Below, in pieces: positions 20,513-40,264 of a stretch of 64,000 nucleotides of DNA (its first letter is position 1; each line of letters opens with the position of its first letter). A program made the position numbers and the translations under genes. Location of the stretch: positions 4,329,570 to 4,393,569 of the forward strand of contig NZ_CP042906.1 of assembly GCF_008728855.1 (NCBI RefSeq), in the 5' to 3' direction. The notes under the pieces are model-generated. The model worked only from the letters and a program-made list of their open reading frames with translations. It was not told the origin of the DNA and made no database searches. Origin of the DNA: Hypericibacter terrae. GTDB lineage: Bacteria > Pseudomonadota > Alphaproteobacteria > Dongiales > Dongiaceae.

Positions 20513-20718
20513 TTCCGGTGTCATCCCCCAGGCGCGCCCCGCCTATATCCGGAGGGGTATGCCGCGGGCGGGAGCCCACCCCCTAGAATGGCGATCGGGA
20601 TGCGAGGGAGCGGCACGCAGCTCCGGCATCGGGGAGCGGGTTGACGGAACGCCCATTTGGCGAGCCGCGAACTCATTCAAGCAACAAGAACGACGACCAC
20701 TCACAGGGAAAGATCGAC

Positions 20719-21900
20719 ATGAGCAAGAGCTGGTACAGCGACCTGCCGCAATATTACCAACGCCAGATCAAGGCGATGGGCCTCGACGATGCCGGCATGA
20801 GCCGGCGCCGCGCGATGAAGGCCATGGCCGCCGCAGCGGGTGCCGCCGCCGCCGCGGGCCTGGTCAAGCCGGCCGCGGCCGCGGCCAATCTCAGCTATAT
20901 GTGCTGGGAAGGCTACAACGACCCGCGCATCATCGAGCCCTTCAAGAAGGCCAATGATTGCGACGTCTCGTTCGACCTGATCGTCGATTCTCCCGGCGGT
21001 TTCGCCAAGCTGCAGGCGGGCGCGTCGCGCGAGGTCGATATCGTCTCGACGGACATGCCCTGGGTCACCCGCATGGGACCCGCCGGCCTCGCCCTCGAGC
21101 TCGACCCCACCCAGTATGCCGACATCTATGCGACCTTCTATCCGCAGTTCCGCCCGCCCTTCGAGCCGCTGATCACCGACGGCAAGACCATCGGCGTCGC
21201 CACCCGCTGGGGTTGGGTCGGACCCTGCCTCAATCTCGATCACGACAAGCCCGAGGATTGGAAGACCTATGACGGCGTCTTCGATCCGAAGAACAAGGAC
21301 AAGATCTGCGTGATGGATTGGGGCGATTGGCCGATCCTGCCGATGGCTCTCCATGCCGGCGTCAATCCCTATGAGGAGCTCGACAAGAACGGCCTCGAGG
21401 AGGTGCGCAAGGTGCTGCGCGCCATGTTCAAGAACACCCGCACGCTCGTGGGCGACCTGACCCTGGCGCAGAAGGGCCTGCTCGACGGCTCGCTCAAATG
21501 CTGCGTCGGCTCCGGCTCCTACATGACGTCGGCCATGCGCAAGCAGGGCCACAAGAACATCCTCGCGGTCGTTCCTGAGCCCAAGAACGGGCTGAAGACG
21601 GGCATCATCTGGGTCGAGGCGACGGCGATCCTGAAGGAAACGGACCAGCCGGATCTTTCGCGCAAGCTCCTCAAGCATGTCGTCTCGAAGGAGAGCGGCA
21701 AGATCCTCTCGCTCCTCGACACCACCTCCAACGTTGTGACCAACGCAGAGGTCGAGAAGGAGTACACCGACGAGGAGAAGTCGATCCTCCAGGTCGATTA
21801 CATGTGGCACGCCTGGGACAACAGCCAGATGCACCGCATCGCGCCGAACATCGACGAGATGCTGGCGATCTGGCAGGAAGAACTGGCGGCGGCCCAGTAA
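20719..21900 (+). CDS. ABC transporter periplasmic binding protein, PotD/PotF-like
   Basis: 393 residues. Twin-arginine signal: GMSRRRAMKAMAAAAGAAAA (about 26-45) with cleavage near AAAA-N at about 56. The mature part starts LSYMCWEGYNDPRIIEPF, as in polyamine-type (family 1) binding proteins, then DIVSTDMPWVTRM and GVATRWGWVGPCLN. GSGSYMTSAMRKQGHKN and IWVEATAILKETD occur in the second lobe. It delivers ligand to the permeases encoded downstream. Polyamines are one option, but the nearby hydrolase leaves other cationic solutes open. ATG at 20719 follows ACAGGGAAAG. A strong hairpin separates it from the ATPase gene. Confidence 0.88.
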   Translation: MSKSWYSDLPQYYQRQIKAMGLDDAGMSRRRAMKAMAAAAGAAAAAGLVKPAAAAANLSYMCWEGYNDPRIIEPFKKANDCDVSFDLIVDSPGGFAKLQAGASREVDIVSTDMPWVTRMGPAGLALELDPTQYADIYATFYPQFRPPFEPLITDGKTIGVATRWGWVGPCLNLDHDKPEDWKTYDGVFDPKNKDKICVMDWGDWPILPMALHAGVNPYEELDKNGLEEVRKVLRAMFKNTRTLVGDLTLAQKGLLDGSLKCCVGSGSYMTSAMRKQGHKNILAVVPEPKNGLKTGIIWVEATAILKETDQPDLSRKLLKHVVSKESGKILSLLDTTSNVVTNAEVEKEYTDEEKSILQVDYMWHAWDNSQMHRIAPNIDEMLAIWQEELAAAQ

Positions 21901-21915
21901 TCCCGTTAGCGTCGC

Positions 21916-21949
21916 GGCGAGGCCGCTCCTCAGGCGGAGCGGCCTCGCC
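21916..21949 (+). terminator. Intra-operon stem-loop after binding protein gene
   Basis: A perfect 14-bp stem, GGCGAGGCCGCTCC, loop TCAGGC, GGAGCGGCCTCGCC, starts 15 bases after the stop and is followed by a pyrimidine-rich CTTTCCTTTCC. It likely attenuates transcription or protects the binding-protein mRNA, giving more binding protein than membrane components. Confidence 0.7.
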
Positions 21950-21996
21950 CTTTCCTTTCCCGCGAACCCACGGCGCGCCAGCCTTGACGGGAGCCC

Positions 21997-23118
21997 ATGG
22001 CCCGAACCGATACCCATGACGCCGATCTCCTCGAGATCGTCGACCTCAAGAAGAGCTTCGGTAGCTACGAGGCGCTGAAGGGCGTCTCGCTCACGGTCCG
22101 TCAGGGCGAGTTCATGGCCCTGGTCGGCCCCTCGGGCTGCGGCAAGACCACGCTCCTGAAGCATGTCGCGGGCTTCGAGGAACCGACCGCGGGAACCTTG
22201 CGCATCGACGGCAAGGAGATGGTGGGCGTACCGCCGGCGCAGCGTCCGACCAGCATGGTGTTCCAGCGCCTGGCGCTCTTCCCCCATATGACGGTGGCGC
22301 AGAATATCGGCTTCCCGCTGAAACTGCGGAAGATGGCGCATCCCGAGATCGAGGCGCGGGTGCGCGCCATGATCACGCTGATGGAGCTGCGTCCCGAATA
22401 TCTCGGCCGCTATCCGCGCCAGCTTTCGGGCGGCGAGCAGCAGCGCGTGGCGCTCGCCCGCTCGATGGTGTCCGAGCCCAAGCTTCTCCTGCTGGACGAG
22501 CCGCTCTCGGCGCTCGACGTCAAGCTCAAGAAGGTGCTGCAGGCCGAGCTCAAGCGGCTCCATCGCAGCCTCGGCGTGACCTTCCTCCATGTCACGCACG
22601 ACCTCGAGGAAGCGATGATGCTGGCCGACCGCATCTGCGTCATGCGCGCCGGCGAGATCCTGCAGATCGGCAGGCCCGACGACATCTATTACCGGCCCGC
22701 CAACGCCTTCGTCGCCGGCTTCATCGGCGAGACCAATCTCTTTCCGGTCGACATCACCTCGATCGAGGAATCGGGCGTCGGTTATCGCTCCGGCGAGATC
22801 CAGGACGCCACCAACCGCGTTCCTCGCGCGCTCGCCGCCAAGGTCCTCGCCGAGGGCGCCGCGCATATGATGGTGCGCCCGGAGCTGATCCACATCGCGC
22901 GCAGCGGCGTCTCCGGCGGCTTCGATTGCCGCCTTCCGGCGAGCATCACCGAGCTCTTCGTCAAGGGCGGCACGATCCAGTACCGGGCCCGATCGAGCCT
23001 GGGCCAGGACATCGTGTTCGAGATGCCCGGCACCTCGGAACGGCCCGCCGACATCGGCGACAAGGTCGAGCTCGGCTGGAACAAGGCCGACATCTTCCTC
23101 TTCTGCACCGAGGCCTGA
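21997..23118 (+). CDS. ABC transporter ATP-binding protein, PotA-like
   Basis: 373 residues. Walker A LVGPSGCGKTTLLKHVAGFE (about 46-65), the Q-loop at MVFQRLALFPHMTV, signature QLSGGEQQRVALARS, Walker B LLLLDEPLSALDVKLKK, and the H-loop LHVTHDLEEAM follow in order. A C-terminal TOBE/regulatory domain (about 240-373) contains MVRPELIHIAR. It powers import through the two permeases next to it. ATG at 21997 follows TGACGGGAGCCC. The permease gene starts two bases beyond its stop. Confidence 0.93.
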   Translation: MARTDTHDADLLEIVDLKKSFGSYEALKGVSLTVRQGEFMALVGPSGCGKTTLLKHVAGFEEPTAGTLRIDGKEMVGVPPAQRPTSMVFQRLALFPHMTVAQNIGFPLKLRKMAHPEIEARVRAMITLMELRPEYLGRYPRQLSGGEQQRVALARSMVSEPKLLLLDEPLSALDVKLKKVLQAELKRLHRSLGVTFLHVTHDLEEAMMLADRICVMRAGEILQIGRPDDIYYRPANAFVAGFIGETNLFPVDITSIEESGVGYRSGEIQDATNRVPRALAAKVLAEGAAHMMVRPELIHIARSGVSGGFDCRLPASITELFVKGGTIQYRARSSLGQDIVFEMPGTSERPADIGDKVELGWNKADIFLFCTEA

Positions 23119-23119
23119 G

Positions 23120-23989
23120 ATGGCGACGGAGGTCGAACGCAGCTGGCGCGATCCCGCCTTGATCGGCAAGGCCCTGCCGACCGTGCTGCTGCAGACGAGC
23201 TGCTTCCTGGCGCCGCTGCTGATGACCTTCCTGCTGACCTTCCAGAAGACCAAGAACTTTCAGCTCACCTGGGCGTGGAACCTCGATGTCTGGACCGACG
23301 TCTTCACCAAGCCGCATTACTGGACCATCCTGATCCATACGCTCGTCATGGCGGTAACCTGCACCGCCCTGTGCGTGGTGCTGTCGCTGCCGATCGCCTA
23401 TGCGCTGGCGACCCGCATGAAGCGCTTCGAGAATCACATCAAGATTCTCATCACCTTCGCCTTCCTGACGGACGCGACGCTCAAGACCTTCGGCTGGGTG
23501 CTGTTCCTCGATGCCCATGGGGCCGCGAATTATCTGCTGGAGCAGATCGGGTTCGCACCCGGCACGATCGCCATCCTCTTCACCGACTGGGCGACCATGC
23601 TGGGCATGGTCTATAGCCTGCTGGCCTTCACCATTTTCACGATCTATCTCTCGATCGACCAGATCGACCGCTCGCTGATCCTCGCCGCCTACGACGCCGG
23701 GGCCGGCAAGTTCCGCGCCTTCTGGGAGGTGACCCTGCCGCTCTGCCGCCCGGGCATCTGGGCCGGCGTGGTGCTGGTGTTCCTGCTGGCGGTCGGCGTC
23801 TTCCTCGAGCCCAAGGTGCTGGGCGGCGGCAAATCGCCGATGTCGGCCGAGCTGATCCGCCAGACCTTCGAAACCCGCGTGAACTGGCCCTTGGGCGCCG
23901 CCCTCACCTTCGTGCTGATGGCTGCGGCGGTGTTCTTCATCCTGCTGTTCAACCGGGTCTATTCGCTCAAGCGCTCGATGGTGGCCTGA
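23120..23989 (+). CDS. ABC transporter permease, PotB-like
   Basis: 289 residues with about six membrane helices. After a cytosolic lead the first helix is near residue 25-45 (SCFLAPLLMTFLLTF); TLVMAVTCTALCVVLSLPIAYA is the second. The EAA loop that docks on the ATPase is recognisable as LAAYDAGAGKFRAFWEVTLPLCRPG. ATG at 23120 follows the ATPase stop by one base and overlaps the next gene's ATG by one base (TGATG), showing translational coupling. Confidence 0.9.
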   Translation: MATEVERSWRDPALIGKALPTVLLQTSCFLAPLLMTFLLTFQKTKNFQLTWAWNLDVWTDVFTKPHYWTILIHTLVMAVTCTALCVVLSLPIAYALATRMKRFENHIKILITFAFLTDATLKTFGWVLFLDAHGAANYLLEQIGFAPGTIAILFTDWATMLGMVYSLLAFTIFTIYLSIDQIDRSLILAAYDAGAGKFRAFWEVTLPLCRPGIWAGVVLVFLLAVGVFLEPKVLGGGKSPMSAELIRQTFETRVNWPLGAALTFVLMAAAVFFILLFNRVYSLKRSMVA

Positions 23990-24804
23990 TGAACCACCGC
24001 CTCGAAGCCCGGCTCGTCGAAATCGTTCTCTACGGCTCGGTCGCGGCCGTCCTGGTATTCTTCTATCTCCCGATCTTCACGCTGATCGCATTCTCCTTCC
24101 ATGAGGGGCGCTATCTGACGCTGCCCTTCGACGGCTTTTCGCTCGACTGGTATGCGGCCCTGCTCGACAACCCCAACGCCAAGGGAGCGCTCGTCAATTC
24201 GACCGTGATCGCGCTCATCTCCATGGTGGCGAGCACGATCTTCGGCACCCTGGCCGGCATCGTGGCGGTGCGTTATCGCTTTCCGGGCAAGAAGCCCTTC
24301 CTCGCCCTGTCGGCTGCTCCCCTGGTATTCCCGCAACTGCTGCTCGGTATCGTGCTGCTGCTGTGGTTCTCGGTGCTGGGGCGCTGGCTCGATTTCAACA
24401 ACGGCGTCACGACGGCCATCATCGGACATGTGGTCTATATCACCCCCTTTGCCATGGTGATCGTCGCAGTCCAGGTGTTCAATTTCGACGCGACGCTCGA
24501 GGATGCGGCGCGCGACTGCGGTGCGGGCGACTGGGAGGTTTATCGCTACGTCACGATCCCGCTGCTTTGGCCCGGTATCTTCTCGGCCGCCATCTTTGCC
24601 TTCCTCCTGTCCTGGGGAAATTTCTACCTGACCTACAGCCTCGCCGGCTCGACCCGCACGCTGCCCACCTTTGTCTTCAGCGGCATCGCCACCGGTTCAT
24701 CGCCGCTCTATCCGGCGATGGCGACGGTCGTCTTCATTCCGGGTATCCTGCTGGTGATGCTGGCGGACGGCCTGCGCCGGCGGGCCGCCCGCGGCGGCGT
24801 CTGA
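23989..24804 (+). CDS. ABC transporter permease, PotC-like
   Basis: 271 residues, six predicted helices. It starts with a helix at about 12-35 (VLYGSVAAVLVFFYLPIFTL) and ALVNSTVIALISMVASTIFG follows. The EAA loop is LEDAARDCGAGDWEVYRYVT, then IPLLWPGIFSAAIFAFLLSW. It pairs with the PotB-like protein to form the channel. Its first codon overlaps the stop of the previous gene. A CocE/NonD hydrolase begins 31 bases after its stop, probably in the same transcript. Confidence 0.9.
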   Translation: MNHRLEARLVEIVLYGSVAAVLVFFYLPIFTLIAFSFHEGRYLTLPFDGFSLDWYAALLDNPNAKGALVNSTVIALISMVASTIFGTLAGIVAVRYRFPGKKPFLALSAAPLVFPQLLLGIVLLLWFSVLGRWLDFNNGVTTAIIGHVVYITPFAMVIVAVQVFNFDATLEDAARDCGAGDWEVYRYVTIPLLWPGIFSAAIFAFLLSWGNFYLTYSLAGSTRTLPTFVFSGIATGSSPLYPAMATVVFIPGILLVMLADGLRRRAARGGV

Positions 24805-24835
24805 CCGCTATTTCATTACCGGCCGACCCGAGGAC

Positions 24836-26842
24836 ATGATGACGGACCGTTTCCATAACACCGTGCGCGAGATCGAGAACGCCTGGATCGAGCTCAAGGA
24901 TGGCTGCCGCCTGGCGGCACGCATCTGGCTGCCGGAAGGCGCCGAAGCGAAGAAGGTGCCGGCCATTCTCGAATATCTCCCCTATCGCAAGCGCGACGGC
25001 ACCGCCGTGCGCGACCAGCTCACCCATCCCTATTTCGCGGCCCATGGCTATGCGTCCTTACGCGTCGACATGCGCGGCAACGGCGAATCCGACGGGGTGA
25101 TGCTGGACGAATATCTGAAGCAGGAGCAGGACGACGCGATCGAGGTGCTCGACTGGATCGCGCGCCAGCCCTGGTCGACCGGCAAGGTCGGCATGATCGG
25201 CATCTCCTGGGGCGGCTTCAACGGGCTTCAGGTCGCCGCACGGCGTCCCGAACCGCTGAAGGCCGTGGTCTCGATCTGCTCGACCGTGGATCGCTATGCC
25301 GACGACATCCATTACAAGGGCGGCTGCCAGCTCAACGAGAATCTCGGCTGGTCCTCGACCATGTTCGCCTATTCCTCGCGGCCCCCCGATCCGGCGCTGG
25401 TCGGCGACCGCTGGCGCGAGATCTGGATGGAGCGGCTCGAGAACGAGCCGTTGCTGATCAAGAACTGGCTGGAGCATCAGCGCCGCGACGAATACTGGAA
25501 ACATGGCTCGATCTGCGAGGACTGGAATTCGATCGAGGCGGCCGTGCTGGCCGTGGGCGGCTGGGCCGACGCCTATCGCAACGCGCCGCTCCAACTGGTC
25601 GCCCGTCTCAAGGCGCCCTGCAAGGCGCTGATCGGGCCCTGGCTGCATAAATATCCGCATTTCGCCGTGCCGGCGCCGCGCATCGGCTTCCTGCAGGAAT
25701 GCCTGCGCTGGTGGGACTACTGGCTCAAGGGGATCGATACCGGCGTGATGAAGGAGCCGGACGTGCGGGCCTATATGCAGGACAGCGTGCCCGCCAGCAC
25801 CTTCTACAAGGAACGGCCCGGCCGCTGGATCGCCGAACCCTCCTGGCCGTCGCCCCACATCAGGCCGCTGACCCTGGCGATGAATGCCAACGGTCTGGCG
25901 CCGCAGGCGGGACCCGAAACGCCGCTCGAGCTCGCCTCGCCGCAGACCACGGGCTCGGTCGGCGGCGAATATTGCGCCATCTGGCTGGGGCCGGAATCGC
26001 CGGGCGACCAGCGCGTCGACGATGCGGGCTCGCTCTGTTTCGACGGCGCGCCGCTGGCGGCGCCGCTCGAAATCTTCGGCACGCCCGAGATCGAGCTCGA
26101 GCTCGCGATCGACAAGCCGCAGGGCTTCGTCTGCGTCCGGCTCTGCGATGTCTGGCCCGACGGCCAGTCGGTCCGGGTGAGCTACGGTTTCCTCAACCTC
26201 GCCCATCGCAACAGCCACGAGCATCCGAGCCCGGTGCCCGTGGGTCAGCGGCTCAAGGTGAAGGTCAAGCTCGACGACTGCGCCCATGCCTTCCGCCAGG
26301 GCAACCGGCTGCGCATTGCTGTCTCGACCAGCTACTGGCCGATGATCTGGCCCTCGCCCGAGCGGGTGCATCTCACGCTCCAGGCCGGAAAATGCCGGGC
26401 GATCCTGCCCGAGCGCCCGCACCGGGCCGAGACCGCCCCCCATTTCGAGCCGCCCGACAGCGCCCCGCCGCTCAAGCTCGAAACCGTGCGGCCAGGATCG
26501 AATGTCCGCCGCCTCGAGCAGGATCTGGGCTCGGGCGAATGGAAGCTGGTGATCGAGGACGATTTCGGCGAGACGCGCGACACCACCCATGGCCTCGTCA
26601 GCGGCGGCGCCGGCCGCGAGACTTGGCGGGTCCATCCCGACGATCCGCTGCAGGCCGTGGGCGAGACCCATTGGACCATGACCGTGTCGCGACCCGGATG
26701 GTCGACCCGGACCGAGACCTACTGCCGGCTGCGGGCCGATCGCACCCGGTTCTTCCTGGAAGGGCGGCTCGAGGCCTATGAAGGCGACAAGCTGGTGCTC
26801 GAGCGCGAATGGAAGAGCGAGCATCCGCGCGAGATGATGTGA
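24836..26842 (+). CDS. CocE/NonD family hydrolase (X-Pro dipeptidyl-peptidase-like)
   Basis: 668 residues. The N-terminal alpha/beta-hydrolase domain has the nucleophile elbow GMIGISWGGFNGLQVAA (about 121-137, Ser in G-I-S-W-G), YFAAHGYASLRVDMRGNGES as the conserved 'DxRGxGxS' region, and a later Asp/His pair (LIGPWLHKYPH). The C-terminal X-Pro dipeptidyl-peptidase jelly-roll domain (about 370-590) has SVRVSYGFLNLAHRN and LRIAVSTSYWPMIWPSP. Members hydrolyse acyl esters and amides. It is longer than CocE by about 100 residues at the C-terminus. No signal peptide, so its substrate is probably brought in by the importer encoded just upstream. Confidence 0.87.
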   Translation: MMTDRFHNTVREIENAWIELKDGCRLAARIWLPEGAEAKKVPAILEYLPYRKRDGTAVRDQLTHPYFAAHGYASLRVDMRGNGESDGVMLDEYLKQEQDDAIEVLDWIARQPWSTGKVGMIGISWGGFNGLQVAARRPEPLKAVVSICSTVDRYADDIHYKGGCQLNENLGWSSTMFAYSSRPPDPALVGDRWREIWMERLENEPLLIKNWLEHQRRDEYWKHGSICEDWNSIEAAVLAVGGWADAYRNAPLQLVARLKAPCKALIGPWLHKYPHFAVPAPRIGFLQECLRWWDYWLKGIDTGVMKEPDVRAYMQDSVPASTFYKERPGRWIAEPSWPSPHIRPLTLAMNANGLAPQAGPETPLELASPQTTGSVGGEYCAIWLGPESPGDQRVDDAGSLCFDGAPLAAPLEIFGTPEIELELAIDKPQGFVCVRLCDVWPDGQSVRVSYGFLNLAHRNSHEHPSPVPVGQRLKVKVKLDDCAHAFRQGNRLRIAVSTSYWPMIWPSPERVHLTLQAGKCRAILPERPHRAETAPHFEPPDSAPPLKLETVRPGSNVRRLEQDLGSGEWKLVIEDDFGETRDTTHGLVSGGAGRETWRVHPDDPLQAVGETHWTMTVSRPGWSTRTETYCRLRADRTRFFLEGRLEAYEGDKLVLEREWKSEHPREMM

Positions 26843-26845
26843 GCC

Positions 26846-27769
26846 TCAGGCTCTGAGCGGCTTGATGGCGCGGGCCTGGGCCTCGATCCAGGCCTGCAGC
26901 AGCTGGGTCGCGGGCGAAGCCGGTCGGTTCATCGGCAGCAGCTGATAATACCCCCCGGCGGCGGGCACGCTGCCGGGGACCGCCTGCACCAGCGTCCCGC
27001 GGGTCAGGTGATCGGTGATGAGGCCCCGCCAGCCGAGCATGACGCCGTGGCTTTCGACCGCGGCCTGCATCGCCATCATGTAGTTGTTGAAGCGTTCGGA
27101 ACGGCCGCGCGCCGGCTCGGTGATGCCCATCTTGGCGAACCAGATCGGCCAGGTCTCCCAGCTGCGATTGTCGCTCTCGGTATGGATCAGGCGTTCCGCC
27201 AGCAGATCCGCCGGCCGCTTCATCTCGGGCCGCTCGGCCCGGTAGCTGGGGCTGCAGACCGGGATGATGTCGTCGCCGAACAGCAGGGTCGAAGCATAGC
27301 CCGGCCAGTCGCCGGGCCCGTAGAGCACCACCAGGTCGAGATCGTCCTCGAGCCGGTCGACCAGCCGGTCCGCCACGATATAGCGCAGCGCGATATCGGG
27401 ATTGGCGACGCTGAAGCTGGGAATCCGCGGCATCAGCCAGAGCGAGGCGAAGGCGATCGTGGAGCCGACAGTGACCTGGCGTGGATCGGAACCCACCGCC
27501 AGCTCGCGGCAGGCCTGGCCGATCTGGCTCAACCCGTCGAACAGCGCGCGATGCAGCGTGACCCCCTGGGGCGTCAGCCGCACCCGGCGATGGAACCGTT
27601 CGAACAACGCGCAGCCCAGATGTTCTTCCAGCTTGCGCACCTGCCGGCTGATGGCGGCCACGGTGACGTTGAGTTCGGCCGCCGCCAGGGTGATGGACTG
27701 ATGGCGGGCTGCGGCCTCGAACGCCACGAGGCTGTTGGCAGGCGGCAGCTGAGGGTCAGACTGGGCCAT
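26846..27769 (-). CDS. LysR family regulator (GcvA-like)
   Basis: 307 residues. HTH: NSLVAFEAAARHQSITLAAA then LNVTVAAISRQVRKLEEHLG (about 12-60). The effector domain begins VTVGSTIAFASLWLMPRI. It resembles GcvA-type LysR proteins. It sits tail-to-tail with the hydrolase, three bases apart, and head-to-head with the long leader of the first Dpp/Opp operon. The 23-bp shared motif begins 19 bases upstream of its ATG, an expected place for its own operator, so it is the best candidate to control both tandem importers. Confidence 0.88.
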   Translation of the reverse strand: MAQSDPQLPPANSLVAFEAAARHQSITLAAAELNVTVAAISRQVRKLEEHLGCALFERFHRRVRLTPQGVTLHRALFDGLSQIGQACRELAVGSDPRQVTVGSTIAFASLWLMPRIPSFSVANPDIALRYIVADRLVDRLEDDLDLVVLYGPGDWPGYASTLLFGDDIIPVCSPSYRAERPEMKRPADLLAERLIHTESDNRSWETWPIWFAKMGITEPARGRSERFNNYMMAMQAAVESHGVMLGWRGLITDHLTRGTLVQAVPGSVPAAGGYYQLLPMNRPASPATQLLQAWIEAQARAIKPLRA

Positions 27770-27787
27770 AAACTCAGGTCAATCAAA

Positions 27788-27810
27788 CATTGATATTTTT
27801 GGGAGTTTAC
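27788..27810. promoter_or_regulatory. 23-bp motif shared by both Dpp/Opp leaders, copy A
   Basis: CATTGATATTT, then TTGGGA, then GTTTAC; it differs from copy B at 33663 in two positions of 23. It contains TTGATA, which could serve as a -35 element reading right. It may be a LysR binding site. Read as codons from the TTG it would give MIF-L-GVY-C-RIAA, also matching copy B with several synonymous changes, so a coding explanation is not excluded. Confidence 0.5.
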
Positions 27811-28054
27811 TGCCGAATAGCGGCCATGCAAGTTTGGCATATCGTAAATAAATATTCGGGCGCGAACAGGGCCGGCGGGCGGGCTCGAGGCCTTGGATCA
27901 GGCCCGTGGGATCGGCTTCATGAGGGTCGGAAACGGGAGCCGGTGTCGGCGCGCTGGCCTTCCCGACCTGCCATCGCTGGCGCGGAAAAGCCCCGAATTT
28001 TGCCGGAGATGCCGCTTGGGGCCGTCATGATCGGCCGGTAAGACGTCAATCATG

Positions 28055-28159
28055 CTGTGGCAACGGGAAAGCCCGTGCCATAGTTCGCCTCAAATAATAA
28101 GCCGCTCGTGGGAGTGCGGCACTCGGATGAACCCCACCGAAGCATGGGAGGCTTCAATG
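28055..28159 (+). ncRNA. Candidate cis-regulatory RNA, copy A
   Basis: Three elements line up with copy B at 33917-34026. P1: CTGTGGC (28055-28061) pairs with GCCATAG (28077-28083), extended by ACGGG-AAAG-CCCGT. P2: GCCGC (28101-28105), 10-base loop, GCGGC (28116-28120). GTGGG in the P2 loop (28108-28112) can pair with CCCAC at 28133-28137 to make a pseudoknot. P3: GAAGC-ATGGGAG-GCTTC (28139-28155) with the Shine-Dalgarno in the loop. An ATG follows at 28157. Spacing from P2 to the pseudoknot strand is 11 bases, as in copy B. Function as a riboswitch is inferred. Confidence 0.5.
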
Positions 28160-28246
28160 ATCGACTTCGGACATCGGTGCGCGACAACCGCGAACCGCCG
28201 GCAGGCCCGCATCCTGGGTTCGGCCGCGCGGCGAGCTTCGGCTTGA
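28157..28246 (+). CDS. Possible 29-codon leader ORF
   Basis: The ATG stands where the binding-protein start codon stands in copy B, one base after the P3 hairpin and five after GGGAGG. The frame reads MIDFGHRCATTANRRQARIL and ends RRASA, 29 residues, basic, with no similarity to the binding proteins. The real binding-protein gene starts 309 bases later. It might be a leader peptide whose translation reports on the RNA element, or an accidental frame left where an older gene start was displaced. Confidence 0.3.
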   Translation: MIDFGHRCATTANRRQARILGSAARRASA

Positions 28247-28534
28247 CTCGCGCCCTCGCGAGCAAGATCGCCTTTCCGGCCCTCTAGCCCGGTCTGACGA
28301 TCCGTCGAATGCCGATTCGTCTCATGCACGATCTAACGATGCACGACGTCTTGGTTCGCCGCGGCTTTCACCCTGCTGCGCTCTCGATCGGGCCGATGGG
28401 CCGGAACGGAACCGCAGGGCCGCAGGAACCGAAGGCCGGCATCTCCGCACGCGACGCTGTCGCCGCCGGAGATTGCCGGTCGAGGAAGAACTGACCGCCG
28501 GTTGGACATGGTGCCCTTCCGGTTTGGCCGAAAA

Positions 28535-28551
28535 TCGATGGGAGATATCGA
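28535..28551 (+). promoter_or_regulatory. Hairpin enclosing the Shine-Dalgarno of the first binding-protein gene
   Basis: TCGAT, 7-base loop GGGAGAT, ATCGA. The loop carries the Shine-Dalgarno for the ATG at 28555. Stem length and loop length are the same as in the P3 hairpins at 28139 and 34003, although the stem sequence differs. It may weaken or tune translation initiation. A 5-bp stem can arise by chance. Confidence 0.4.
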
Positions 28552-28554
28552 GCA

Positions 28555-30141
28555 ATGAATGAATGGGAACGGCTCCAACAGGCAGCCCTGACGGGCAGGG
28601 CCAGCCGACGTGAGTTCCTGCGCGGCGCGGCTGCGCTGGGCATCACGACCGCGCTCAGCAGCGGAATCATGGTGAAGGCGGGTTGGGCCGCCGAACCGAA
28701 GAAGGGCGGCACCCTTCGCATGGGCATGGAAGGCGGCTCGCCCAGCGATTCGCTCGATCCGCGCACCTACGCGGACTCGGTCATGATCGCGGCGTCGCTC
28801 GCCGTCATGAACTGTCTGATCGAGTTCGACACCGCCGGCAATCCGACGGGCGAGCTGTTCGAAAGCTGGGACGTGAAGCCCGGCGCCGCCGAATGGGTCT
28901 TCAATGTCCGCCAGGGCATCAAGTTCTCGAACGGCAAGACGCTCGACGCCGAAGACTGCATCTACTCGATCCAGATCCATCGCGGCGAGACCAAGTCGCC
29001 GGCCAAGGGCATCCTCGAGCAGATCAAGGAGATCAAGGCCCTGTCGCCGACCCAGGTCGGCATCACCCTCTCTTCCGGCAATGCCGACTTCCCGGTCATC
29101 CTCGGCGACTACCATCTCGTGGTGGTGCCGAAGGATTTCACCGACTGGCAGAAGCCGATCGGCACCGGCGCCTACACGCTCGAGAGCTTCGAGCCGGGTG
29201 TGCGCCTGGTCTTCAAGAACCGCGGCGATTACTGGAAGCCCGGCCGCGGCAATTTCGACACGGTCGAGCTGCGCAACATCCAGGACGTTGCGGCCCGCAC
29301 GGCGGCCCTGCAGTCGGGTGAAGTCGATGCGGTCAACCGCCTCGATGCCCGCACCGTGAAGCTGCTGATGCAGGACCCGAACCTCAACGTCGTCCGCACC
29401 AAGGGCACCGGCAACCGCTTCTGCTTCGTGACCCGCGTGACCGACAAGCCGTTTGACAACAAGGATCTGCGCACCGCCCTGAAGTGGGGCATCGATCGCG
29501 AGAAGATCATCGAATCCGTCTATAACGGCTATGCCGTCCCGGGCAACGATCACAATCTCGACGCGCTCAATCCCTTCTACAACACCGAGATGCCGCAGCG
29601 GAAATACGATCCGGAAAAGGCGGCGTTCTTCTTCAAGAAGGCGGGGCTCCCCGCCAACACCGCGATCGAGCTGCAGACCTCGGAAGGCGCCTGGGGCTCG
29701 GCCGTCGACTGTGCCTCGCTCTATCAGCAGGCGCTCAAGAAGGCCGGCATCAATCTCGACGTGAAGAAGGTGTCCGCCGACGGCTACTGGGACAATGTGT
29801 GGCTGAAGGTGCCCTTCTGCGCCGTGTATTGGGGCCGCCGCATGTCCGCCGACCAGGCCTTCACCCAGGTCTTCGGCGAGGCGTCCGACTGGAACGACAC
29901 GAACTGGAAGGTTCCGGAGTTCCAGAAGCTGATCAAGGACGCCCGCATCGAAACCGACCAGGCGAAGCGCAAGGAGATGTACTGGAAGGCCCAGGAGATG
30001 ATCGCCGACGACGACGGCTTCATCTGCTTCGCCATCACGGACTATCTCGACGGCTACTCGAAGAAGGTCATGGGCAACGAGCCGCACGCTCGCTACGACC
30101 TGAACGACAACCGTATCGCCGAAAAGGGCTGGTTCGCGTAA
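28555..30141 (+). CDS. ABC transporter substrate-binding protein, family 5 (Dpp/Opp type)
   Basis: 528 residues. Tat signal with SRREFL at 17-22 and a hydrophobic stretch AAALGITTALSSGIMV; cleavage near GWA-AE at about 46. The mature protein starts EPKKGGTLRMGMEGGSPSD, typical of family 5, then WVFNVRQGIKFSNGKTLDAE and IGTGAYTLESFEPGVRLVFK. DLRTALKWGIDREKIIESVY is the conserved hinge region. It binds peptides or similar oligomeric solutes in the periplasm. Folded export by Tat suggests a cofactor or fast folding. A paralogue is at 34024 with the same N-terminal spacing. Start at 28555; a second in-frame ATG follows one codon later. Confidence 0.92.
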   Translation: MNEWERLQQAALTGRASRREFLRGAAALGITTALSSGIMVKAGWAAEPKKGGTLRMGMEGGSPSDSLDPRTYADSVMIAASLAVMNCLIEFDTAGNPTGELFESWDVKPGAAEWVFNVRQGIKFSNGKTLDAEDCIYSIQIHRGETKSPAKGILEQIKEIKALSPTQVGITLSSGNADFPVILGDYHLVVVPKDFTDWQKPIGTGAYTLESFEPGVRLVFKNRGDYWKPGRGNFDTVELRNIQDVAARTAALQSGEVDAVNRLDARTVKLLMQDPNLNVVRTKGTGNRFCFVTRVTDKPFDNKDLRTALKWGIDREKIIESVYNGYAVPGNDHNLDALNPFYNTEMPQRKYDPEKAAFFFKKAGLPANTAIELQTSEGAWGSAVDCASLYQQALKKAGINLDVKKVSADGYWDNVWLKVPFCAVYWGRRMSADQAFTQVFGEASDWNDTNWKVPEFQKLIKDARIETDQAKRKEMYWKAQEMIADDDGFICFAITDYLDGYSKKVMGNEPHARYDLNDNRIAEKGWFA

Positions 30142-31976: not shown

Positions 31977-33595
31977 ACCCCGTGACCGAATCAGTCCTCA
32001 AGATCACGAATCTCCGGATCGAATCGATCCATGGCGCCGTCCTGGTCGACAATGTCTCGCTGGAGCTGAAGCGGGGCGAGGTGCTGGGGCTGATCGGCGA
32101 AAGCGGCGCCGGGAAATCCACCATCGGCCTCGGCTCGATGGTCTATGCGCGCGCGGGCTGCCGGATCACCGGCGGCACGGTCGAGATCGACGGCGAGAGC
32201 GTGCGCGATCTCTCGGCGGACGGTCGGCGCGATCTCCGCGGCAAGCGCATCGCCTATATCGCCCAGAGCGCCGCGGCCTCGTTCAACCCCGCCTATCGCA
32301 TCATCGACCAGGTCTGCGAGATGCCCGTCAAGCATGGCCTGATGAGCAAGCCCGAGGCGCGCGCCTGGGCCGTCGAGCTGTTCAAGGCGCTCGATCTGCC
32401 GGATCCGGAGAAGTTCGGGAACCGCTATCCCCATCAGGCGTCGGGCGGCCAGCTGCAGCGCGCCATGACTGCCATGGCGATGTCCTGCCGCCCCGATATC
32501 CTGGTGTTCGACGAACCCACCACGGCCCTCGACGTGACGACGCAGATCGAGGTCCTGGCGCTGATCAAGAAGCTGATCCAGAACTACAACACGGCCGCCC
32601 TCTACATCACCCACGATCTCGCCGTGGTCGCCCAGGTGGCCGACCGGATCATGGTGCTGCGCCACGGCAAGATGGTGGAGCTGGGCGCCACCAAGCAGAT
32701 CCTGCTGGCACCGACCACCGATTACGCGCGCGCCCTGGTGTCGGAGCGCAAGGCCGCCGACAAGCTCTCGGTCGAAGCCGAGACCGTCCATGGCGAGCCG
32801 CTGCTCAATGTGCAGGACGTTGTCGGACAGTATGAGCATTTCATCGCGGTCAAGAACGTCACCATCTCGGTGGCGAAGGGCGAGACCGTGGCCGTGGTCG
32901 GCGAATCCGGCTCCGGCAAGAGCTCGCTGGCCCGCCTCATCGTCGGCCTCCTGCCGCGCAAATCGGGTTCCGTGCGGTTCGGCGGCGAGGAGCTGCCGCC
33001 GGCCCTCAAGCAGCGCAGCAAAGACAATCTTCGCCGGATCCAGTTCATCTATCAGCAGCCGGACGTCGCCCTCAATCCGCGCCAGACGATCGGCGAAGTC
33101 ATCGGCCGCCCGATCAAGTTCTATTTCAACCATCCGTCGGCGGAGGTGAAGCGGCGCGTCGCCCAGCTGCTGAAGCAGGTGGGGCTGCCGGAGGACTATG
33201 CGAAGCGTCTGACGACGGCCCTGTCCGGCGGCCAGAAGCAGCGCGTCTGCATCGCGCGCGCGCTCGCGGCCGAGCCGGACCTCATCATCTGCGACGAGCC
33301 GACCTCGGCGCTCGACCAGCTGGTGGCCGAAGACATCCTGAAGCTCCTGAAGAAGCTGCAGGACGAACTCGGCGTGGCCTATCTCTTCATCACCCACGAT
33401 CTCGGCATCGTGCGCCGGATCGCGCATCGAACCGCCGTCATGTTGCGCGGCGAGATCGTGGATCAGGGACCGACGCCGAGGCTCTTCTCGCCGCCATTCC
33501 ATCCCTATACCGAGCGCCTGCTCTCCTCGGTGCCGGAGATGCGCACCGAGTGGCTCGATGAACTCCTCAGCAAACGGGCACGGAAGGCGGGATAG
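31973..33595 (+). CDS. ABC transporter ATP-binding protein, fused DppD-DppF type
   Basis: 540 residues containing two complete nucleotide-binding domains in one chain. Domain 1 (about 1-265): Walker [14 protein letters not shown], signature [14 protein letters not shown], Walker [20 protein letters not shown]. Domain 2 (about 275-540): Walker [19 protein letters not shown], signature [16 protein letters not shown], Walker B LIICDEPTSALDQLVAED. Both have D-loops and H-loops (ITHDLAVVA, ITHDLGIV), so both sites look active. In most bacteria these are separate DppD and DppF proteins. Starts GTG at 31973 inside the permease gene. Confidence 0.93.
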   Translation: MNPVTESVLKITNLRIESIHGAVLVDNVSLELKRGEVLGLIGESGAGKSTIGLGSMVYARAGCRITGGTVEIDGESVRDLSADGRRDLRGKRIAYIAQSAAASFNPAYRIIDQVCEMPVKHGLMSKPEARAWAVELFKALDLPDPEKFGNRYPHQASGGQLQRAMTAMAMSCRPDILVFDEPTTALDVTTQIEVLALIKKLIQNYNTAALYITHDLAVVAQVADRIMVLRHGKMVELGATKQILLAPTTDYARALVSERKAADKLSVEAETVHGEPLLNVQDVVGQYEHFIAVKNVTISVAKGETVAVVGESGSGKSSLARLIVGLLPRKSGSVRFGGEELPPALKQRSKDNLRRIQFIYQQPDVALNPRQTIGEVIGRPIKFYFNHPSAEVKRRVAQLLKQVGLPEDYAKRLTTALSGGQKQRVCIARALAAEPDLIICDEPTSALDQLVAEDILKLLKKLQDELGVAYLFITHDLGIVRRIAHRTAVMLRGEIVDQGPTPRLFSPPFHPYTERLLSSVPEMRTEWLDELLSKRARKAG

Positions 33596-33631
33596 CGAAG
33601 GCGAGCGGAGCAGGATTTCAGGCGACCGGAA

Positions 33632-33653
33632 CCCCTCGCTCATCGAGCGGGGG
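33632..33653 (+). terminator. Stem-loop after first Dpp/Opp operon
   Basis: CCCTCGCTC, loop ATC, GAGCGGGGG form a 9-bp stem with one T-G pair, 36 bases after the ATPase stop and 9 bases before the 23-bp motif of the next leader. No T-run follows. It may end the first operon's transcript or partly insulate the second promoter. Confidence 0.45.
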
Positions 33654-33662
33654 CCAGCCGGT

Positions 33663-33685
33663 CATTGATATTTATGGGTGTTTAC
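33663..33685. promoter_or_regulatory. 23-bp motif shared by both Dpp/Opp leaders, copy B
   Basis: CATTGATATTT, ATGGGT, GTTTAC; 21 of 23 bases equal copy A. TTGATA (33665-33670) with TAAGAA 16 bases further on (33687-33692) could be a sigma-70-type promoter. It lies 361 bases before the binding-protein ATG, about the same distance as copy A lies before its ATG at 28157. The rest of the leader up to about 33915 has no clear feature. Confidence 0.55.
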
Positions 33686-33916
33686 CTAAGAATTGCCGCC
33701 GGCCGGTTCAGCCTGGCGCCGACCTTCGAGACGCGGCGGCAGGCAGACGGCATTCGGGACAAGTCGAAGCCGCCGGAGGCGATTTCCATCGGGAGAGAGC
33801 ATAGCGGGACATGTCGCGCCTCGTCCCAAGGTCTGCCGGGCCGGACATTCCGGCCTTGCGCACCGGGACCGCGGGGGAGGATGAAGCGAATCTCGCGATC
33901 CTGTAATGCCATGGCG

Positions 33917-34026
33917 CTATGGTCCTCGGGATGCTCGTGGCATAGTCATTTCAAGTCATAAGCTGCCGCCAGTGGGGGTGCGGCGGTCCATCGAACCCCA
34001 CCGAAGCAAGGGAGGCTTCCGCTATG
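33917..34026 (+). ncRNA. Candidate cis-regulatory RNA, copy B
   Basis: P1: CTATG (33917-33921) with CATAG (33941-33945); copy A has a G-U pair where this copy has A-U. P2: GCCGC (33965-33969), loop CAGTGGGGGT, GCGGC (33980-33984). GTGGGG in the loop (33972-33977) is complementary to CCCCAC at 33996-34001, giving a 6-bp pseudoknot. P3: GAAGC-AAGGGAG-GCTTC (34003-34019); its loop is the Shine-Dalgarno for the ATG at 34024. Ligand-dependent folding would then decide ribosome access. No known riboswitch consensus was recognised. Based on two copies and hand pairing. Confidence 0.55.
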
Positions 34027-35616
34027 AGCGAACTCGAATATTGGAAATCGCGGCTTGCGGGCGGCAAAGTCAGCCGTCGTGAATTCATCGGCCGCGCCGC
34101 GGCCCTCGGCCTGACGACGGCGCTGGCGACCACGCTCGCCAGCAAGATCTCCGGCGCGGAGCCCAAGAAAGGCGGTTCGGCGAAATTCGGCCTGGCCCAT
34201 GGCGCCACCACAGACTCTCTCGACCCGGGCACCTGGCCCGATACCTTCACCCAGACCTCGTTCTGGGGCTCGACCTGCAACGGCCTCACCGACATCGATA
34301 CCAAAGGCAACATCGTCGGCGACCTGGCCGAAACCATGGAACCCTCGAAGGGCGCGACCGAGTGGATCTTCAAGCTCCGCAAGGGCGTCACGTTCCACAA
34401 CGGCAAGAATCTGACCTCGGCCGACGTCCTCGCTTCGTTCAATCATCACCGGGCCGAGAATTCCAAGTCGGCCGTGAAGTCGGTCCTCGCTCCGATCGCC
34501 GACATCAAGGCCGACGGCGCGGACACGGTCGTCTTCACGCTCAAGGATGCCAGCGCCGATTTCCCCTACCTGACCAGCGACTATCACATCCCCATCCTGC
34601 CGGCGAAGGACGACGGCACCCTCGACTGGCAGTCGGGCATCGGCACCGGCGCATTCATTCTCGAGAAGTTCGAGCCGGGCGTCTCCGCCAAGGAGAAGCG
34701 CAATCCCAATTACCATAAATCGGGACTTCCCTATTTCGACGAGGTCGAGTTCCTGGCGCTGACCGACGTGACGGCGCGGACCAACGCGCTCACCACGGGC
34801 GAAGTGCAGTTCATCGGCCGCTGCGATCTGAAGACCCTCAACCTGCTTCAGCGCAACAAGGATCTCGAGATCGACGAGGTCACCGGCTATGGCCATTACG
34901 TGCTGCCGATGGACACCACTCAGAAGCCGTTCGACGACGTGAACGTCCGGACGGCGCTCAAATACGCGCTCGACCGGGAAGAGGTGGTCAAGAAGATCTT
35001 CCTCGGCCACGCCACTGTCGGCAACGACAACCCGATCGCGCCGACCATCAAATACGCGATCCAGCCGGAACCGAAGTACAGCTATGACGTCGACAAGGCG
35101 AAGTTCTACCTGAAGAAGTCCGGACTCTCCTCGCTCAAGGTCGATCTCTCGGTCGCCGATGCCGCCTTCGACGGCGCCGTCGATACCGGCGTTCTCTTCA
35201 AAAATAGCGCCGCCAAGGCCGGCATCGACATCAATGTCGTGCGCGAACCCAACGACGGCTACTGGGACAATGTCTGGCTGAAGAAGGGCTGGTGCGCGTC
35301 CTATTGGAGCGGCCGGCCGACCTGCGACTGGATGTTCTCGACGGCTTATGCCGCCGGTGCGGCGTGGAACGAGACACATTGGAACAACGCGAGGTTCAAC
35401 CAACTGCTGGTCGCGGCCCGCGGGGAGACGGACGACAAGAAGCGCGCGACGATGTATGCGGAGATGCAGCAGATCACGCATGACGATGGCGGCGTGATCG
35501 TCCTGGTCTTCAATAACTATGTGAGCGCCCACTCGAAGAAAGTGGCTCACAACACGCTCGCCTCGAACTGGGAGAATGACGGCCTGAGAATGGCCGAGCG
35601 TTGGTGGTTCACCTGA
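34024..35616 (+). CDS. ABC transporter substrate-binding protein, family 5 (paralogue)
   Basis: 530 residues, paralogue of the protein at 28555. Tat signal SRREFI at 17-22, hydrophobic AAALGLTTALATTLAS, cleavage near SGA-E at about 45. Mature start EPKKGGSAKFGLAHGATTDS; WIFKLRKGVTFHNGKNLTSA and GIGTGAFILEKFEPGV match the paralogue. NVRTALKYALDREEVVKKIF is the hinge segment. It supplies the importer encoded at 35766-39298. Divergence from its twin in the binding lobe (SYWSGRPTCDWMFSTAY) suggests a different ligand. Translation starts immediately behind the RNA candidate. Confidence 0.92.
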   Translation: MSELEYWKSRLAGGKVSRREFIGRAAALGLTTALATTLASKISGAEPKKGGSAKFGLAHGATTDSLDPGTWPDTFTQTSFWGSTCNGLTDIDTKGNIVGDLAETMEPSKGATEWIFKLRKGVTFHNGKNLTSADVLASFNHHRAENSKSAVKSVLAPIADIKADGADTVVFTLKDASADFPYLTSDYHIPILPAKDDGTLDWQSGIGTGAFILEKFEPGVSAKEKRNPNYHKSGLPYFDEVEFLALTDVTARTNALTTGEVQFIGRCDLKTLNLLQRNKDLEIDEVTGYGHYVLPMDTTQKPFDDVNVRTALKYALDREEVVKKIFLGHATVGNDNPIAPTIKYAIQPEPKYSYDVDKAKFYLKKSGLSSLKVDLSVADAAFDGAVDTGVLFKNSAAKAGIDINVVREPNDGYWDNVWLKKGWCASYWSGRPTCDWMFSTAYAAGAAWNETHWNNARFNQLLVAARGETDDKKRATMYAEMQQITHDDGGVIVLVFNNYVSAHSKKVAHNTLASNWENDGLRMAERWWFT

Positions 35617-39322: not shown

Positions 39323-40264
39323 ATGGATATCCGGGCGCGCCTCGATCCGGAAATGCTGGCGGCCCTGGCCGAGAGCCAGCGGCTCTATGGCGGCGAGACC
39401 TTCGACCTGCAGGACCTTCCGGCGGCGCGCGAGGTCTATGCGCGCGAGCGCCGCTTCTGGAACAGCGACGGCCCCGCTCTCGCCGAGGTTCGGGATTTTT
39501 CGATTCCGGGGCCCTATGGCGCCGTGCCGCTGCGGCTCTATCGCCCCGCTACCGAGGGTCTGTTGCCGGCCCTCGTCTACCTCCATGGCGGGGGGTACGT
39601 CCTGGGCGACCTCAACACCCATGACCGCATCATGCGGCTCTTTGCGGTTCGATCGGGCGCCGCGGTCGTCGGCGTCGATTACCGGCTGGCGCCCGAGCAC
39701 AAGTTCCCGGTTCAGCTCGAGGAGATCGCGGCAGCCCTCGACTGGCTCGCCGACGAAGGACGGAGTGCCGGTATCGATGCAGCCCGGCTGGCGCTCGGTG
39801 GCGATTCCGCCGGCGCCCATCTGTCGCTCGGGACCGCCATTGCTTTCAAGGGCAGGAGCCCGCGCATCAGCGGCATGCTGCTCTACTATGGCAGCTTCGG
39901 TCTCGGCGACTCGCTGTCGATGCGGGTCTGCGCCAACGATCTCGACGGGGTGAAGCCGTCCGATCTCGCTTTCTACCGGAATGCCTATCTTCGAGGGCCG
40001 CGTGACCGCGAGGATCAGCGCCTCGACTGCCTCTCGGCCGATCTCGCCGGCCTGCCGCCCGCCTATGTCCTGGCGCTCGAGCTCGACACGTTGCGCGACG
40101 ACAGCCTGGCGCTGGTCGAGTTGCTGACCCGTGCCGGCGTTGCCTGCCGGCTCACGCGCCATGACGGCGTCCTGCATGGCTATCTGCATTACAGCCGTGT
40201 GATTCCCAAGGCGATGCAGGCGATCGAAGAGGGCGCGACCGCCTTGCGCGGCTGGCTGTTCTGA
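39323..40264 (+). CDS. Alpha/beta hydrolase, hormone-sensitive lipase family
   Basis: 313 residues. Oxyanion motif LVYLHGGGYVLGDL (HGGG at about 91-94) and nucleophile elbow LALGGDSAGAHLSLG (GDSAG, Ser at about 160) place it in the HSL (bacterial family IV) esterases. Catalytic Asp is in YVLALELDTLRDD and His in GVLHGYLHYSR. It has no signal peptide and acts in the cytosol on small esters or lactones. It is the last gene of the second importer operon, 24 bases after the ATPase, which suggests that the imported molecule is an ester. Confidence 0.88.
   Translation: MDIRARLDPEMLAALAESQRLYGGETFDLQDLPAAREVYARERRFWNSDGPALAEVRDFSIPGPYGAVPLRLYRPATEGLLPALVYLHGGGYVLGDLNTHDRIMRLFAVRSGAAVVGVDYRLAPEHKFPVQLEEIAAALDWLADEGRSAGIDAARLALGGDSAGAHLSLGTAIAFKGRSPRISGMLLYYGSFGLGDSLSMRVCANDLDGVKPSDLAFYRNAYLRGPRDREDQRLDCLSADLAGLPPAYVLALELDTLRDDSLALVELLTRAGVACRLTRHDGVLHGYLHYSRVIPKAMQAIEEGATALRGWLF

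Follow-up and report, generated by a model that had tools for sequence, protein, structure and literature searches.

The window, i.e., the whole stretch of 64,000 nt of the Hypericibacter terrae genome that was analysed, carried two genes for family 5 extracellular solute-binding proteins on the forward strand. SBP1 (28555..30141, +) lay beyond a LysR-family regulator gene on the reverse strand (26846..27769, −), which was divergent from the SBP1 side leader described below. SBP2 (34024..35616, +) carried a twin-arginine signal (SRREF) and headed a dpp-like operon, both features being recognized by eye. The two proteins matched GsiB-, NikA- and DppA-type models far below the cut-offs, and their PDB relatives (YliB, DppA, a nickel-binding protein, AgaA and others) settled no substrate. 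A peptide- or ester-like ligand had been put forward in the earlier note, and nothing was found in support of it. Further transport and hydrolase genes flanked the region: positions 20641-26842 held an operon for an SBP_bac_8 protein and, as judged by eye, an ATPase and a pair of permeases, whose last gene, just before the LysR gene, encoded a CocE/NonD-type hydrolase, while an Abhydrolase_3 esterase was encoded at 39323-40264, downstream of the SBP2 operon.

Immediately upstream of SBP2 lay a conserved leader RNA candidate, hereafter element A (33917..34026, +), with its 3' end on the SBP2 ATG at 34024. Its proposed fold began with P1 (33917..33945), a weakly supported helix between CTATG (33917-33921) and CATAG (33941-33945), followed by an A-rich strand, TCAAGTCATAA (33951..33961), which is unpaired in this fold. 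The P2 hairpin (33965..33984) joined GCCGC (33965-33969) to GCGGC (33980-33984) across a 10-nt loop, in which GTGGG(G) at 33972-33977 could pair with CCCCAC at 33996-34001 to give a putative H-type pseudoknot (33972..34001), with an 11-nt linker between P2 and CCCCAC. P3 (34003..34019) paired GAAGC (34003-34007) with GCTTC (34015-34019) and closed a 7-nt loop of the form NNGGGAG (AAGGGAG in A) that held most of the Shine-Dalgarno (SD) sequence GGGAGG at 34010-34015. All of these features were on the forward strand.

A second copy, element B (28055..28159, +), repeated the spacings of A, with GCCGC at 28101, GTGGG at 28108, GCGGC at 28116, the 11-nt linker, CCCCAC at 28132, GAAGC at 28139 and an ATG at 28157. 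For both copies, direct reading of the sequence bore out the described stems and loops, the linker and the match between linker and P2 loop, and also the claim that at least five pseudoknot pairs are maintained in the second one, five being present in B versus six in A. When the conserved 3' block, CCCACCGAAGCNNGGGAGGCTTC, was searched across the window with up to three mismatches, only the A and B sites were recovered, and none appeared in 100 shuffles. The description of the element as covering the start codon of a binding-protein gene holds for A, which ended on the SBP2 ATG; B did not reach the ATG of its intact neighbour SBP1 at 28555 and ended instead on the ATG of a 29-codon ORF (28157..28246, +), 398 nt upstream.

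Homologues beyond the window, for which the earlier note had called, were found in a sister species. A blastn search with A in 17 genomes of the family gave matches in two, both of the same genus, and yielded copy C in the other of them (G014). A covariance model built from A, B and C (R1), which gave its training sequences A and B 116 and 122 bits, then recognized a fourth copy, D, in G014 with 75 bits (E 1.8e-13), D being outside the training set. Copy C was located upstream of the SBP2 ortholog of G014 (74% protein identity) and D between the LysR gene and SBP1; A and C, like B and D, are therefore positional pairs.

The distribution of the element was narrow, its copies being confined to one genus (two genomes) within all the genomes searched. 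At the level of the order, represented by the same 17 genomes, R1 was positive in two and in 0/15 of the other family genomes, and a model of all four copies (R3) gave hits in 5/17 at E≤1, comprising the two genus genomes and three matches of 18-21 bits that had no CCCCAC. Class and phylum samples, which overlapped, were run with stricter filters and evidently did not include the sister genome. With R1, the class sample yielded 3/385 positive genomes, namely the own genome and two with matches of 28.5 and 26.3 bits antisense in long ORFs, while R3 yielded 4/385, the own genome and three with 28.5, 27.0 and 25.4 bits, of which the 25.4-bit match fell within a long ORF. The phylum sample yielded 2/398 with R1, the own genome and one with a 28.7-bit match (L132) not inside a long ORF; this candidate shared P2 and part of the A-rich strand but had no CCCCAC, and was discarded as a chance match. 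The class and phylum matches outside the own genome, none above 28.7 bits, were all taken for chance, the best non-genus match in the 385- and 398-genome samples having 28.7 bits versus 75 bits for D.

Searches directed at genes related to SBP2 gave the same picture. From 327 loci found, 79 distinct ones were retained, and R1 detected no element in the 77 scanned (best score 16.3 bits); L026 and L047 were excluded as they begin inside the gene, three loci (L073, L077 and L086) had leaders shorter than 100 nt, and the leaders of L012-L060 were also examined by eye. R1 detected no element at 28 SBP loci from family genomes, where the top score was 13.8 bits, the searches of plasmids and phages gave no match, and a pattern scan of viral contigs returned 15 stretches, none of which R1 recognized at E≤1. 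During this survey, a different conserved leader, CAGGCGCCACGCA..GGGAGGGCC..TGATGCGG, was seen within 190 nt before the SBP match in Dongia deserti and three MAGs (L018, L019, L022 and L032); on visual inspection, this leader may include a short uORF preceded by an SD. Another family genome carried tandem SBP2-like genes (G009:C44:292446-295763).

The element also agreed with the earlier statement that it belongs to no recognized class. Rfam 15 (4227 models) gave no match over the whole window at gathering score and none in the B leader (27750-28250) at E≤10, while the A leader (33640-34100) gave sub-threshold matches only at E≤10: mir-762 (22.9 of 80 bits), Pyrobac-1 (15.7 of 40) and, on the minus strand, ar14 (13.4 of 58.8). 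No description of the element was met in the literature found, including the accessible part of PMC11109978.

Each copy was accompanied by a second conserved sequence further upstream. A promoter- or operator-like motif, ATTGATATTTATGGGTGTTTAC (33664..33685, +), preceded A, where it scored as a sigma-70-like site (TTGATA-17-AAGAAT), and a matching 22-nt motif (27789..27810, +) lay between the LysR gene and B, where no site passed the sigma-70-like promoter scan. Searched as ATTGATATTTNTNNGNGTTTAC with at most two mismatches, the motif occurred exactly twice per genome in both genomes, each time 231-358 nt before a copy of the element, and a reversed control gave none; the sites in the sister species were at L011:2414 and L011:8361. 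At three mismatches, other genomes of the family gave five single matches, and the control columns gave five too. The motif in the C leader forms a dyad (AAATATCAATCAACGATTGATATTT).

Comparison of the two species showed the element to be an island of conservation in diverged leaders. Identity per column was 0.70 between the A and C elements and 0.73 between those of B and D, versus 0.16-0.41 in five shuffles each. The spacers from motif to element reached 0.28 in A/C (five shuffles, 0.19-0.29) and 0.45 in B/D (five shuffles, 0.28-0.40), and the DNA behind the B/D elements reached 0.52 (shuffles, 0.24-0.40). On the same scale, the genes of the two genomes had identities of 0.91 for SBP1, 0.83 for LysR and 0.78 for SBP2. 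The core of the element contained 44 columns invariant across the four copies, with CAA and ATAA of the A-rich strand unchanged in 4/4, and conservation extended to the SD; past P3, it dropped in B/D and continued into the gene in A/C. Judged from these alignments, interspecies conservation of the element is above chance. The B core was no closer to A (55/70 positions) than to C (56/71) or D (53/71), and its P1 region was nearest to that of D (26/30, versus 20 with A), so that recent conversion within the genome is not apparent; with the leaders diverged as well, the conservation is read as selective. The claim that conserved islands persist under constraint in diverged leaders was thereby upheld. 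A second conserved island, GGACATGGTGCCC..CGGTTTGGCCGAAA, stood directly 5' of the SBP1 start in both species (28505-28545 and L011:3120-3165), again in diverged surroundings.

The sequences behind B and D suggest what these copies once preceded. In its own frame, the 29-aa product of the short ORF behind B had no similarity to the SBP2 N-terminus, its score being reached by 445/500 shuffles, but frame 2 of the same DNA matched that N-terminus at a level reached by 0/500 shuffles (8/500 for SBP1). At the DNA level, a stretch at 28220..28272 (+), frame-shifted with respect to the short ORF, resembled the SBP2 5' end (0/300 shuffles; 3/300 with SBP2 of G014). The corresponding ORF behind D (37 aa) scored 61 against the N-terminus of SBP2 from the window and 52 against that of G014 (0/2000 shuffles each), whereas its score against SBP1 was reached by 238/2000 shuffles; D and the C gene had no match at the DNA level (151/300 shuffles). 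A probable decayed start of an SBP2-type gene is thus present in both species, at 28157-28300 for B and L011:2779-2892 for D, with the leader elements intact. Most likely, B and D represent the leader and gene-start remnants of an SBP2-type gene whose coding part has decayed, as the residual similarity suggests, and a duplication is likely. That the element has stayed intact while the coding part decayed suggests that it is still active at B and D, perhaps influencing the SBP1 operon by way of the short ORF.

The evidence for the fold was of a different kind from that for constraint. P2, the pseudoknot and P3 comprised five pairs each, and all 15 were kept in 4/4 copies, those of P2 and P3 being invariant. 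D retained CCCCAC despite a linker of 12 versus 11 nt and a following gap of 2 versus 1 nt; the MAFFT alignment set this block one column off, so that two pseudoknot pairs seem unpaired there, and locating the strings showed the blocks to be intact. Loop lengths of 2, 2-3 and 11-12 nt fit an H-type pseudoknot. The covariation that had been proposed as support for P1, P2 and the pseudoknot was nil, with two-sided changes in 0/22 pairs and a score of 0.076 that was equalled by 500/500 shuffles (0.068 in a control slid by +3). Because P2, the pseudoknot and P3 were invariant, this is missing information and not a contradiction of the fold. Folding energies relative to shuffles were uneven: z values for the whole element were +1.21 (A), +1.14 (C), −2.75 (B) and −2.04 (D), and those for the core were +1.59 (A), −0.50 (B), −0.34 (C) and −2.45 (D), only D standing out. 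The combination of P2, pseudoknot and P3 arose in 1-6 per 5000 dinucleotide shuffles of each copy and in 118/25,572 real 70-mers of the window (0.46%, A and B included), which makes the rarity of the fold moderate and suggestive only. Taken as a model, the fold is plausible.

The element is a real, constrained leader that, among the genomes searched, is restricted to one genus and most likely controls translation. The more specific reading that we prefer, a genus-specific cis-acting leader RNA that governs how translation of the operon for the SBP2 transporter is initiated, is held at about even chance. The data show four conserved copies, their co-occurrence with the upstream motif, an SD within the element and its absence from Rfam; from these we infer RNA to be the acting form and, with it, a putative fold, a putative direction of the switch and possibly a ligand. 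Transcription would probably start at the common TTGATA-type promoter, some 230-360 nt upstream, and no terminator-like sites were found in 33590-34060 or 27760-28600. The CCCCAC strand finds a complement in the P2 loop and an imperfect one in the SD region, and may have two partners, the GTGGG of the P2 loop (pseudoknot) and GGGAGG of the SD region. In the ON state, the pseudoknot would form and hold CCCCAC away, leaving the SD free in the small P3 loop; in the OFF state, without the pseudoknot, CCCC would assist in burying the SD. A small molecule, a protein or an ion may tip this balance. At B and D, a second promoter and leader copy would stand before a decayed SBP2-type start upstream of SBP1 and may act via the short ORF.

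Folding predictions were partly in line with such a switch. In pseudoknot-free folding, the SD was largely paired in B and D and to a lesser extent in A, and pairing with CCCC was predicted in A, B and D. Since a G-rich strand is apt to be released in any case once a C-rich one is blocked, the SD opening predicted when the pseudoknot strands were blocked and P2 was forced is a hypothesis and not evidence of function: the opening of the SD GGG changed from 0.11/0.09/0.23 to 1.0 in B, from 0.01 to 1.0 in D and from 0.55/0.10/0.46 to 0.72/0.58/0.61 in A, and C showed no rise, its first two G going from 0.10/0.08 to 0.03/0.04. By simple energy sums that include no pseudoknot penalty, the state with P2, P3 and pseudoknot was more stable than the best pseudoknot-free fold by about 3 kcal/mol in A, B and C, and less stable by about 5 kcal/mol in D.

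Four other explanations were weighed. A metabolite riboswitch, in which an aptamer is built from the A-rich strand and the pseudoknot and access to the SD of a substrate-uptake operon depends on a ligand, would account for a compact pseudoknot and an invariant A-rich strand beside the SD, as well as for the transporter binding-protein gene downstream. As far as the available text of PMC9373788 goes, SAM-II riboswitches govern translation in an alphaproteobacterium. The absence of covariation, the very narrow distribution and the lack of any Rfam match or sign of a ligand weigh against a riboswitch, which we consider unlikely. The layout of a translational riboswitch ascribed to the locus stands in part: a conserved leader element does end on the SD and ATG, but covariation is nil and P1 is broken in A and D, and a riboswitch is one possibility among several. 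More speculative, and decidedly unlikely, is a new genus-restricted riboswitch class in which the H-type pseudoknot would serve as an anti-sequestor: a ligand would stabilise the helix between CCCCAC and the P2 loop and so free the SD of a peptide-type transporter operon, and the second copy, having outlived its own gene, would now act via the short ORF that remains ahead of another transporter operon.

Another explanation is an element recognized as DNA or by a protein, in which CATAGT and the A-rich strand form a promoter or operator or the site of an RNA-binding protein, and the hairpins downstream are ordinary 5' UTR. Over its seven pairs, P1 was paired in 26/28 cells; three pairs had one-sided, wobble-compatible changes, and there were two breaks, G.G at pair 6 in A and G.A at pair 4 in D. 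The A-U/G-U difference between A and B that had been noted in this stem is present, but it is wobble-compatible only and compensates nothing. The right arm was more conserved than the left, and the right arm with its next base (columns 25-30, CATAGT) was invariant while the left arm varied, a pattern that sequence recognition fits better than a helix; the uncompensated P1 and the LysR gene adjoining B and D point the same way. Against this, a separate conserved promoter-like motif already lies 231-358 nt upstream of every copy, and conservation continues through the hairpins and the SD toward the ATG. This explanation, too, is fairly improbable.

A leader peptide (uORF) conserved at the protein level, as in the ilvB-II motif, would find a parallel in a motif-like leader that, in the portion of PMC10272879 consulted, proved to carry a uORF. 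One frame was open through B, C and D with similar peptides, and differences at codon positions 1, 2 and 3 numbered 3, 3 and 8 between B and C and 4, 6 and 9 between C and D, with an excess at the third position; they were 4, 6 and 1 between B and D, which counts against a peptide. No start/stop pair recurred in all four copies and the frame was broken in A, so the uORF was rejected as very unlikely. A passive relic, in which a duplication took in the promoter, the leader and the start of the gene and divergence of the copies has yet to set in, would agree with the probable decayed SBP2-type start behind B and D, but the spacers of both positional pairs align barely or not and no recent within-genome conversion was seen between copies, so that the two-species comparison largely refutes it and leaves it very unlikely.

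Rare lineage-specific leader RNAs are of the type missed by covariation-based discovery, because they have too few relatives. Two species with two loci each provide four copies in diverged leaders, which is enough for constraint and not for the fold. If the switch is real, it would add a compact pseudoknot controller of peptide-type transporters, and B and D, which seemingly outlived their gene, would offer a natural test of action at a distance.

Among known systems, the ilvB-II motif is likewise a conserved leader of narrow taxonomic range that came from a structured-RNA search, according to the part of PMC10272879 available. Unlike ilvB-II and leader-peptide attenuators, the four copies here share no conserved start codon with an in-frame stop. 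The pnuC motif, as presented in the accessible text of PMC8632094, is a candidate translational element with a pseudoknot involving the RBS region. There, as far as that text goes, the pseudoknot partner is the RBS itself, whereas here the partner of CCCCAC would be the P2 loop, and CCCCAC may be in competition with whatever pairs with the RBS. The odc1 motif, in the same partial source (PMC8632094), is an alphaproteobacterial leader with a hairpin, a loop pseudoknot and an RBS within the structure that is tied to the choice of translation start; its loop pairs with the 5' end of the motif, its RBS lies in the P1 stem, and it has two tandem UUG starts and an 11-aa uORF. In the present element, the loop has its partner in the 3' linker, the start codon is ATG and no uORF is common to the copies, so that it falls outside the definition of odc1.

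The element resembles the SAM-II riboswitch as a compact pseudoknot in alphaproteobacterial leaders that would control the SD. The SAM-II riboswitch (Rfam RF00521) has an H-type pseudoknot. It was not listed for either leader in the Rfam scans at E≤10, and it differs in its genes, which belong to methionine biosynthesis, whereas those here encode transporters; here, moreover, the hairpin loop that holds the SD is located past the pseudoknot. In Sinorhizobium meliloti metA, the start codon served by the SD of the riboswitch is 74 nt further downstream, as described in the available part of PMC9373788, and by analogy this case may provide a precedent for B and D acting at a distance.
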